64,000 bases of DNA from Candidatus Cacconaster scatequi (GTDB lineage: Bacteria; Bacteroidota; Bacteroidia; Bacteroidales; UBA932). A model generated the notes under the pieces. It was not told the origin of the DNA. It worked only from the letters and a program-made list of their open reading frames with translations, and ran no database searches. The translations under genes were made by a program, and so were the position numbers. Below, in pieces: positions 34,544 to 37,795 of this stretch. Position 1 is the first letter of the stretch. Each line of letters begins with the position of its first letter. The stretch is from the NCBI GenBank assembly GCA_018065305.1, contig JAGHTO010000015.1, positions 62,001 through 126,000 of the forward strand, in the 5' to 3' direction.

Positions 34544-36172
34544 TCAGTCGAGCCGGAGAATTTCATCGGCATAGTTGAGAGCACATTCCCTGTGGGTAAT
34601 CATCAGTATCGTTTTGTGCCCTCTATATTCCGAAGCCAGGCGCTCAAGAAAGATTGCCTCTGTGGCGGAATCCAGAGCTGAGGTGGTCTCGTCGAGAATC
34701 AAGACTGTTCCGGGATGCAGAAGGGCGCGGGCAATGGCAATTCTCTGGGCCTGGCCTTCGCTGAGACAGGAACCTCTCTCACCGCAGAGGGTGTCAAGTC
34801 CGTCAGGGAGGTTATACACAAAATCGGCCGCGGCAATGTGCAGGGCTTGTCTTATCCTATCATCGTCCGCTTTATGATCCGCGAGGATGAGATTTTCACG
34901 CACGGTACCGCTCAGAAGGCTTCCTCCCTGTGGAACGTACATGAAATTGCCTATAGCGGCCTTGAAAGACTGGCCGTCGGCAAGTTCAAAGGAGACATTA
35001 CCTTTACCGGGACGCAGCAATCCCATTGACAATCGGGCGAGAGTGCTTTTCCCTCTACCGGTGCTGCCCATTATCACGGTAATTGTGCCGGCCTTGAATG
35101 TATGGGAGAAGCCGTCGAAAACGGGAATACCTTTCCCGGGGTATGAAAAACTGATATTGTCAAACACAAGCGAAGGCGCCTCGTCAAGAACGGGGCCATC
35201 GGTGAGTGCAAGAGCCGGAAGTGACTCCAGCTCGGAGAGCCTCTCTTCGGAACTCATTGCCTGGATGAAGGCCGGGATGTGCCTCGACAGGTCTGCAAGA
35301 GGTTTCTGCACTTGACCCACCAACTGCAGGAAGGCGGTCATCATACCATAAGTCACTATTCCGTCCCGAATGCCGAAGATACCCCATAGAAAAGCAGTGG
35401 TGTATCCCGCCATAAAGCCGAAACCGATAAATCCTCTGGCTATGGAAGTGTAGTTCAGCCTCTTGATATACGTTGCCTTCAGATTGTCCAGAATTGAAGA
35501 GAACCTTTCCTTAACCCTGTCGAAACCGGACAGAGACAATGCCATCGCCCTGTTCTGAAGGCTTTCCTGAACGTGTTCCAGACTTTCGCTGTCCTGCTTT
35601 CTTATGCTGTCCGTCAGTCGGCGTTGCGTTTTGTAGAACATCTTGGAGCCCAGCAGGCCGAGCAGCATCAGGATAATCAGCAGAGTAAGCAGGCCCGGCG
35701 CCATCATCACAAGGAAGACGGAGGCGGCGATGAGTTGGCAGACAGTCACTATTATGTTGGGGATACGTGTGCACACGAGCTCTACCATCACGCGGATGTC
35801 CTCCTGGATGCGGTTCATTACATCTGCGCTGTGGAATTCCTCCGGCACGTCCCAGCTGCTGCCCATCACGTGGGAGAAGGTGCGGAGCCGCAGGGCGTTG
35901 GTCGCCTTGATTTGTGTGAGATTTTCCCAATAAGAACTCGCCACATTGCAGGCAATGCGCAGAAGCACAATCAGAATCATCAGCCACACATAGTCTTCTA
36001 GAGTTTTGTCAATAACCCCCGTGGCAATGTCAACGAGGCACTTGGATACCCACACGAACACGATGGATGCCGCTACGTTCACAAGACCTGTCAGCACGCA
36101 GAGCGCCACGTGCCACCGGAACGGCCTGTACACCGCCGCCATTCCCCTTATGCTGCTTCTGAAATCTTTCAC
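34544..36172 (-). CDS. ABC transporter, fused permease and ATPase
   Basis: 542 residues. Six predicted TM helices lie in residues 15-300, then the ATPase: Walker A GSTGRGKST (369-377), Q-loop near YVPQGG, signature LSEGQ (470-474), Walker B LILDE (491-495) and H-loop MITHR. This is the homodimeric type I exporter layout. There is no N-terminal C39 peptidase. It follows a PqqD-like gene by 12 bp, with a peptidase and a kinase-like gene upstream, which suggests export of a processed peptide or lipid-linked product. Substrate is not identifiable from the sequence. Confidence 0.9.
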   Translation of the reverse strand: MKDFRSSIRGMAAVYRPFRWHVALCVLTGLVNVAASIVFVWVSKCLVDIATGVIDKTLEDYVWLMILIVLLRIACNVASSYWENLTQIKATNALRLRTFSHVMGSSWDVPEEFHSADVMNRIQEDIRVMVELVCTRIPNIIVTVCQLIAASVFLVMMAPGLLTLLIILMLLGLLGSKMFYKTQRRLTDSIRKQDSESLEHVQESLQNRAMALSLSGFDRVKERFSSILDNLKATYIKRLNYTSIARGFIGFGFMAGYTTAFLWGIFGIRDGIVTYGMMTAFLQLVGQVQKPLADLSRHIPAFIQAMSSEERLSELESLPALALTDGPVLDEAPSLVFDNISFSYPGKGIPVFDGFSHTFKAGTITVIMGSTGRGKSTLARLSMGLLRPGKGNVSFELADGQSFKAAIGNFMYVPQGGSLLSGTVRENLILADHKADDDRIRQALHIAAADFVYNLPDGLDTLCGERGSCLSEGQAQRIAIARALLHPGTVLILDETTSALDSATEAIFLERLASEYRGHKTILMITHRECALNYADEILRLD

Positions 36173-36184
36173 TGCTGTGGGAGA

Positions 36185-36454
36185 TTATTCTTCAATGAGT
36201 CCGGCTTCCGCCCAGGACCGGGCCAGCCTGGCCGCATCCGCACCGGCAACTTCCCCGTCCACTTCATATTTTTCGAGCAGCAGCTGCTTGATATCTTCTA
36301 CTGTAAATTCTTTTCCTGACAGAGCCTCCCAAAGATAAGCTGCGGTGTCGTTGAAAGAGATCATTTTGTTGAAGTTGACGAGGCTGCTGCCTTCCGCAAC
36401 CACGATATGCTCCCTTCCGAGCTTGCGCATTTTGAATCCTTCCCTAATCTTCAT
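36185..36454 (-). CDS. PqqD-like protein (RiPP recognition element)
   Basis: 89 residues. The pattern is two or three short strands, NFNKMISFNDTAAYLWEAL, then helices containing FTVEDIKQLLLEKYEVDGE and a final AEAGLIEE. It matches the winged-helix PqqD/RRE family, whose members bind leader peptides of ribosomally made peptides and present them to modifying enzymes. The start at 36454 overlaps the peptidase stop by about 10 bp; an internal ATG (MRKLG) is also possible. No radical-SAM, cyclase or lanthipeptide enzyme is adjacent, so the partner may be the kinase-like or peptidase protein. Confidence 0.82.
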   Translation of the reverse strand: MKIREGFKMRKLGREHIVVAEGSSLVNFNKMISFNDTAAYLWEALSGKEFTVEDIKQLLLEKYEVDGEVAGADAARLARSWAEAGLIEE

Positions 36455-36896
36455 CTTTCATTATGATTTTATGTATGGTTCTTCTATACAATGCCAGAAT
36501 ACAACGTCTGACAAACGGAGGCAATTGTCTCCAGAGATAAGCACTCCCCGGAACACGTTTCCGGCCCGACGACCCCACGATTGCCATCACTTTCCCAAGG
36601 ATATCCTTCACACCGACTTTTTCTGTTCCGCTGACGTTCCCGTCACCTCTCAACGTCACCTCCTCCTCTTTTACTGCAACTATGCGGTGCAGGACATAAT
36701 TGCCGGGGCTTCTCCGGGCCAGTACAATGTCTCCTGGCTGGAGAGAATTGCAGGCTTTTTTCCTTAGTATCACGCTGTCCCTGCCGCCTACGATGAACGG
36801 CAGCATACTTGTGCCTTTTGTCATCAACTCCACGTCCCTGCCTTCGGCAAGAAGGGCTGCAACTTCCTCAAGAAGGATTTCATTCGGAAAAGTCAT
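36444..36896 (-). CDS. S24/S26-family signal-peptidase-like protein (Ser/His type)
   Basis: 150 residues from the ATG at 36896, chosen because it overlaps the kinase stop as ATGA; the longer open frame to 37172 is antisense noise inside the kinase gene. Nucleophile Ser30 is in KGTSMLPFI. The general-base position is His70 in YVLHRIVAV rather than Lys, as in SipW/ER-type signal peptidases. The RGDGN motif at 83-87 is also typical. There is no N-terminal TM anchor; only a basic amphipathic C-terminus (RRCILALYRRTIHKII) could touch the membrane. This points to a dedicated processing peptidase rather than the general one. Confidence 0.8.
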   Translation of the reverse strand: MTFPNEILLEEVAALLAEGRDVELMTKGTSMLPFIVGGRDSVILRKKACNSLQPGDIVLARRSPGNYVLHRIVAVKEEEVTLRGDGNVSGTEKVGVKDILGKVMAIVGSSGRKRVPGSAYLWRQLPPFVRRCILALYRRTIHKIIMKDED

Positions 36897-37795
36897 CTGC
36901 ATACGGCTTCGTGGCATACTTGAGCCGCTTCTGCATCTGGGCGGCAGTCCAGGACAAAACAGGGTTGGGACAGGGCTATGGCCGATATGGTATCGTGAAG
37001 GCCGTCCGCCATCGAGGTGATGCCACGGAATCCGGAACTGGAAGCCGAAATCAGAGCGTATGCCTCCAAGGCCGAAAGAGGAGTGGCAGCATTGGTGGGC
37101 GAGCGGCGTATCTGCACCATGGCGCCCAGAGGCGCGCTGGCATTGCGGTAACAGGGAGTTTTGCCGCTCCATGGTGAGCCGTACACCGTCACGGAACCAT
37201 CTTTGTCCACTCGGACTATGGGGTTGTCATCGTTGAGGAGTTCGCTCCCGGAAATGTTTTCCAGCCACATTCGGCTGTGTGTGCTCTTGCCGGTACCGCT
37301 TTCCGCGAGGAACATATATGCCCGGCCGGAATTGACAGTTACAGAGGAATGCATCTCCAGCGTCATCATCCCGGCCGTGCTGAAAGCGAACATCAGCATT
37401 GTGGCGTTGTCGATGGCGAAGCGCCCTGCATTCAGGCCGGCAAATTCCAGCGCCCCCGACTTGAAATCATCGCTGATGCGAAGGCTCGCCACCTTGGGAC
37501 TTCTGCCGTTCACAGCGAATTCAAGATAAAATCCGTCCGTATCCTTGTAAAAATCCGTCTGAGTCTCTTCCGGACTGTTGACGCCCACGAAAAGGGCCTC
37601 CATCCCGGAGGTATCAGCGGCGCTCCAAGATGAGGCTTCATGAACGTACAGGGTGAATATCGGCATCCCGTCATTGTCCCCGATAGTTGGAGCCACGAAC
37701 GGGCCATAGTTTGCCTTCATCCTTTCCCATAAGGGGGATGCGTCATCCATTACGATGGAGAAACGGTGGCCGGCAACGATGAAATCCTTACGCAT
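36893..37795 (-). CDS. HPr kinase/phosphorylase-like P-loop protein
   Basis: 300 residues. P-loop ESGTGKST at 165-172 followed by HSRMWLENI, then LLNDDNPI (187-194), the arrangement of HprK C-terminal domains. The N-terminal 150 residues are beta-rich and unlike bacterial HprK regulators. Such HprK-like proteins recur in peptide biosynthesis clusters (for example some lasso peptide loci), where they phosphorylate the precursor or product. Here the gene heads a four-gene overlapping set with an S26 peptidase, a PqqD-like protein and an ABC exporter. HPr itself is unlikely as substrate. Target unknown. Confidence 0.75.
   Translation of the reverse strand: MRKDFIVAGHRFSIVMDDASPLWERMKANYGPFVAPTIGDNDGMPIFTLYVHEASSWSAADTSGMEALFVGVNSPEETQTDFYKDTDGFYLEFAVNGRSPKVASLRISDDFKSGALEFAGLNAGRFAIDNATMLMFAFSTAGMMTLEMHSSVTVNSGRAYMFLAESGTGKSTHSRMWLENISGSELLNDDNPIVRVDKDGSVTVYGSPWSGKTPCYRNASAPLGAMVQIRRSPTNAATPLSALEAYALISASSSGFRGITSMADGLHDTISAIALSQPCFVLDCRPDAEAAQVCHEAVCR

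Follow-up and report, generated by a model that had tools for sequence, protein, structure and literature searches.

The cassette described here lies within a 64,000-nucleotide stretch of the Candidatus Cacconaster scatequi genome (hereafter the window), the assembly of which comprises 1.9 Mb. Four tightly packed minus-strand genes encode an HprK-like (PEPCK/HprK fold) kinase (36893..37795, 300 aa), a soluble S26 signal-peptidase-I-like peptidase of the archaeal/SipW type (36444..36896, 150 aa counted from the ATG at 36896), a discrete PqqD-like RiPP recognition element (RRE; 36185..36454, 89 aa) and an MsbA-type ABC exporter (34544..36172, 542 aa), which has a GTG start and no C39 peptidase domain. 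They are the counterparts of LppK, LppS, LppB and LppD, respectively, from the Linear Polyphosphorylated Peptides (LPP), which are RiPPs of Bacillota encoded by lppA-K-B-S-D-N clusters (Popov et al., 2026, PMC13381572). All four open reading frames, together with the order, overlaps and 12-base gap given in a preliminary description of the locus, were confirmed at their coordinates. The kinase TGA (36893–36895) forms a 4-base ATGA overlap with the peptidase start, the peptidase and RRE genes overlap by 11 bases, and 12 bases separate the RRE gene from the exporter GTG. For the peptidase, which stops at 36444, an alternative ATG two codons earlier (36902) is possible. The flanking genes are functionally ordinary and unrelated, with MeaB and DUF1573 proteins on one side and L-rhamnose catabolism genes (isomerase and aldolase, judged by reading their sequences) on the other. 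As had been stated before, the immediate neighbours of the cassette include no precursor, radical SAM, cyclase or Asn-synthase gene.

The RRE belongs to the Pfam PqqD family (61.5 bits) and the exporter matches ABC_membrane/ABC_tran, its best NCBIfam match being MsbA at 207 bits, which is below the family cut-off of 602. The peptidase matches the NCBIfam archaeal-type signal peptidase I, also below cut-off (34.9 bits). No full-length match of the kinase to HprK models was found in Pfam or NCBIfam, only a weak match to HprK_rel_A (NCBIfam). The kinase family keeps the P-loop SGTGKSTH and the sequence LLNDDNP, and the predicted structure (pLDDT 94) has a PEPCK/HprK fold that matches both PEPCK and HprK/P. 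In the peptidase, Ser31, His71 and the Asp86 of GDGN (A4 numbering) do not vary among 21 aligned members. Judged by its sequence, the peptidase has no N-terminal membrane anchor, and the earlier suggestion that it cleaves at membranes is therefore unsupported. The predicted structure of the RRE (pLDDT 89) is a winged fold of three strands and three helices, and it has the beta-winged peptide-binding edge that the preliminary description expected of it. The best PDB matches of this model are the lasso B1 proteins TbiB1 and TfuB1, both solved with bound leaders, and TfuB1 is also the only PDB sequence match of the RRE. Asn35 and Asp73 are conserved in more than 90% of the RREs and align with an Asn and an Asp of TfuB1.

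Conservation was assessed by profile searches of 80 Bacteroidales loci, which came from a kinase scan of GTDB genomes. Kinase and peptidase are adjacent in 79 of these loci, the RRE comes next in about 69 and the ABC exporter thereafter in about 53, with several of the remaining loci stopping at a contig edge. This gene order is far from chance, and the four genes thus stay together in relatives, where the preliminary description had allowed that they might not. The genes around the cassette differ from locus to locus, which leaves the cassette alone as the conserved unit. In many relatives (L034–L075, e.g., L040:6897-9293) it lies beside an ftsK/SpoIIIE-like gene, a ∼220-aa gene and a LolA-like gene (clusters c9, c10/c26, and c12), a fixed chromosomal position from which the window differs. 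A Phocaeicola locus (L101:7582-11221) has the exporter, peptidase and kinase genes in reversed order, with two different PqqD-like genes around them. Very long open frames at some kinase matches (746–928 aa) were taken as probable stop-poor high-GC sequence rather than as fusions. A phylum-wide peptidase search gave only weak matches outside Bacteroidales, except for strong ones in two genomes of a single family (G361 and G714). In these two genomes, which belong to another order of the class, the loci (L223 and L224) have peptidase, RRE and NTase genes side by side, and no kinase was seen in the 3-kb stretch.

Ten loci carry a variant cassette, in which a PF14907 nucleotidyltransferase (NTP_transf_5; 141 bits in the member tested) takes the place of the exporter and is followed by a YxxP ORF of 40–46 aa. 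Elsewhere in Bacteroidales all five enzyme genes are co-located in varying order, e.g., kinase-peptidase-RRE-NTase-exporter in G114. The short ORFs beside the variant cassettes have the YxxP leader in common and differ in their tails. A precursor profile was built from them and then enlarged with its first-pass matches (A6), and counts from the enlarged profile are thus not independent of the first pass. The candidate precursor is an ORF of 40–60 aa with a YxxP leader, a conserved Ser at the leader–core junction and a hypervariable core. It lies beside the cassette in these ten relatives, in the order kinase-peptidase-RRE-NTP_transf_5-precursor; other orders seen are precursor-kinase-peptidase-RRE-NTase (G054) and RRE-precursor-kinase-peptidase (G274).

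In the genome of the window, the enlarged profile identified three precursors, MEIKDYKAPQAEVIEVNVQNVLCQSDGNGSMREVDYGNGGFVEG (C22:9083-9217), MNKNNSIDEGCAKTSYISPEVKMFELTTRNAILSASNPGSTGEDVTPQYPSSW (C59:27047-27208), and MQNLTTPEKEIYQQPMLKVITIQTSRCILENSNTEFEFGGDHIQ (C28:1112-1246), all on other contigs than the cassette. It is accordingly correct that no precursor lies by the cassette in the window, but the family exists and is encoded in trans. A strict M-K-K...YxxP DNA pattern gave no match in this genome because it was too strict to recover these three. Searches of the precursors against the curated Pfam and NCBIfam families gave no match.

The leaders follow the motif K-x-Y-x-x-P-x-[IVA]-E-V-[IV]-E-[VIL]. 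Among 90 distinct peptides anchored on [YFWH]xxP, the first motif position is Tyr in 92%. A Ser is found at Tyr+18 to +20 in 76 of the 90, while Ser does not exceed 10% at any position farther along the core; the junction Ser is lacking in most NTase-variant precursors. The cores are rich in G, D, E, N, S, T, and P and nearly devoid of Cys. Close-homologue pairs, which are partly non-independent paralogues, gave a pooled pN/pS of 0.25, as expected of translated genes. A second precursor subfamily has a junction resembling DTEISLVMxS (L160, L162, L165, L166, and L168). The genomes of this subfamily have divergent kinases (45–81 bits), or none detected in the case of L168 (G327), and one precursor of this type adjoins a kinase (G274).

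The similarity of the RRE to lasso B1 proteins could mean that the cassette represents a lasso-peptide pathway, degenerate or split, with B2 leader peptidase and cyclase encoded elsewhere, since lasso clusters also have YxxP leaders, HprK-like kinases and NTP transferases. The B2 transglutaminase-like leader peptidase (PF13471) was, however, not found in the genome of the window, where an S26 peptidase stands in its stead, and neither a conserved Gly1 nor a ring-forming acid position was found in the cores of the 90 peptides. Membership in the lasso peptides was rejected on the missing PF13471, and we regard a split lasso pathway as highly improbable.

Lipoproteins were called by a regular-expression lipobox rule, and a downstream gene was defined as one on the same strand starting within 120 bases. 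By these definitions a lipoprotein gene lies directly downstream of 56 of 70 distinct precursors, compared to 79 of 706 control pairs (11%, p 1e-34), and several of the other 14 downstream products also look lipoprotein-like or secreted on inspection. Each of the three precursors in the genome of the window is followed by a lipoprotein gene (after 53, 39, and 30 bases), and their partners include a GH20 hexosaminidase-type lipoprotein. Partners in relatives include BspA-type LRR, InlB-type and Fib_succ_major domain proteins, and no Pfam domain common to all partner lipoproteins was found. A T[RK]..W..GD motif raised the suspicion that the partners are fimbrillin-like, but none of the Pfam fimbrillin models gave a match, and this character is therefore not claimed. 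Precursors of the G147/G329 type mostly stand alone. Tandem arrays were also seen: L205 (G012:C54:9000-24500) consists of five units of precursor plus ∼500-aa lipoprotein with a spacing of ∼2.5 kb, the peptides having the core LP[DG]VGDGGDAW in common, and L206 (G021:C37:4500-14000) has three precursor-lipoprotein units with a core (GTNGSNEDFGKG..F) that is better conserved than the start of the leader.

So strong a positional link might indicate that the YxxP ORFs are regulatory uORFs or small partners of the lipoproteins that the cassette does not process, that the cassette has another substrate, and that the two co-occur through a common lifestyle. Peptides without a detected kinase in several genomes (G202, G275, and G329) fit this explanation, although G275 is merely 65% complete. 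The distribution of kinase and peptides was examined in a fixed sample of 324 Bacteroidales genomes searched for kinase, peptidase and peptide, leaving out profile matches within frames of 895 and 314 aa (G151 and G219). With p values uncorrected for tree structure, a concern lessened by the within-genus test below and a spread over 17 families, peptides were found in 16 of 20 genomes with a kinase of at least 100 bits and in 10 of the 304 others (p about 5e-17). The corresponding counts were 21/43 versus 5/281 for a kinase of at least 45 bits (p 9e-17), 18/33 versus 8/291 for kinase plus peptidase (p 7e-15), and, once the seed genomes had been taken out, 8/18 versus 2/304 for the first-pass profile (p 7e-10). 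The highest number of precursors was 26 in one genome (G021). In this short-profile search no precursor match was obtained in 4 of the 20 strong-kinase genomes and 15 of the 33 genomes with kinase and peptidase, where divergent peptides may have been missed. The co-occurrence persists within a single genus, where 28 of 30 kinase-positive and 2 of 7 kinase-negative genomes have peptides (p 9e-4). Furthermore, YxxP is a known RRE-binding motif of LPP and lasso RREs, and more than ten loci have the precursor inside or beside the cassette. These observations argue against ORFs that escape processing, which we find improbable.

We therefore favor a cassette for LPP-like peptide maturation that serves many peptides in trans, most of them paired with surface lipoproteins, and hold this to be likely. 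The small candidate precursors (∼40–60 aa) are encoded by scattered genes, mostly located just upstream of a surface-lipoprotein gene. By homology to LPP, the PqqD-like RRE would take up the YxxP leader as an added β-strand and present the leader–core junction. LppB binds the Tyr and Pro of its leader via D70 and N33 (PMC13381572), to which Asp73 and Asn35 of the Bacteroidales RRE might be equivalent judging from their spacing. The HprK-like kinase may then phosphorylate the single conserved junction Ser at Tyr+19/20, close to the position of the LPP phosphosite Ser3 (Tyr+18), which LppK phosphorylates several times (PMC13381572). The S26 Ser/His peptidase would cut off the leader at the junction, in the cytoplasm; LppS (S29, H68, D93) cleaves in vitro only with LppB (PMC13381572), and Asp86 of the Bacteroidales peptidase may correspond to its D93. 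Finally, the ABC exporter would carry the core, a linear phosphorylated peptide rich in Gly, Asp and Glu, from the cytoplasm, as expected for a counterpart of the LPP exporter LppD (PMC13381572). The idea of the preliminary description that the cassette makes, trims and exports a phosphorylated peptide thus fits the evidence and matches LPP, apart from its membrane cleavage and missing precursor.

The cut could lie on either side of A/C-x-S: ahead of it, which is the arrangement in LPP, or behind it, which is that of signal peptides. In the latter case Ser would occupy P1 of a signal-peptidase-type site, while the kinase would act on another residue or the phosphate would be no more than a transient mark. 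An A/C at −3 together with an S at −1 corresponds to the pattern classically seen at type-I signal-peptidase sites, and a kinase still accompanies variant precursors that lack this Ser. On the other hand, cleavage in LPP precedes A1-Q2-S3 with S3 as the only phosphosite (PMC13381572), AQS or CQS recurs in the Bacteroidales precursors at nearly the same distance from Tyr as in LPP, and no other conserved Ser or Thr is present in the cores. A Ser at P1 is for these reasons possible but rather doubtful, and the junction Ser is our preferred phosphosite.

For the role of the mature peptide we hypothesize that the exported core probably works together with, or on, the lipoprotein encoded next to it. 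The further proposal that one cassette matures a genome-wide phosphopeptide repertoire, each member of which binds, decorates, displays or signals via its own lipoprotein, is in our view about evenly balanced between right and wrong. The Bacteroidales with the cassette are gut and rumen bacteria, in which this kit very probably serves to phosphorylate, trim and export small peptides. No report of such a system in Bacteroidota was found in the literature. LPP-type peptides, reported in 2026 as restricted to Bacillota, would hereby extend to a dominant order of gut bacteria, and an orphan cassette and a large family of short ORFs without a curated Pfam or NCBIfam match gain a testable role. RiPP-type peptide modification would moreover be tied to surface lipoproteins, which is not reported in the LPP paper (PMC13381572). 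Cluster-based RiPP mining would miss these precursors because they are scattered.

Three known systems share features with the cassette. HprK/P of the phosphotransferase system has the kinase fold of the PEPCK/HprK superfamily in common with it, but the surrounding genes are different, no HPr substrate is encoded nearby, and the kinase matches no HprK model over its full length. Paeninodin-type lasso systems share the B1-type RRE, a [YW]xxP leader, an HprK-like kinase, an NTP transferase and an ABC exporter, while B2 is replaced here by the S26 peptidase and no Asn-synthetase-like macrolactam cyclase is found among the immediate neighbours of the cassette. The closest characterised system is LPP, for which the biochemistry of the steps has been demonstrated in Bacillota (PMC13381572). 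Both have an HprK-like kinase, a discrete RRE, an archaeal-type SpI-like Ser/His peptidase and an MsbA-like exporter, as well as a YxxP leader, a conserved junction Ser and a hypervariable linear core without a cyclase. Many Bacteroidales members also have an NTP transferase, corresponding to LppN (PMC13381572). The PF14907 enzyme sits beside the cassette in other Bacteroidales and was not found in the genome of the window, so the earlier term "reduced" system is partly right: of the LPP set, this genome lacks the NTP transferase alone. The LPP precursor consensus is YxxPxVLxHQxIxFETxxS (PMC13381572), of which YxxP and the junction Ser are present in the Bacteroidales precursors and the HQ and FET parts absent. 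LPP clusters contain 1–3 precursors with capsule genes nearby and were stated to be restricted to Bacillota, Bacteroidota not being named (PMC13381572), whereas the precursors found here occur in Bacteroidales, are dispersed in up to 26 copies per genome and are arranged operon-like with surface lipoproteins rather than beside capsule genes. Given these differences in phylum, precursor dispersal, lipoprotein partners and leader consensus, we refer to the system as LPP-like and not as LPP.
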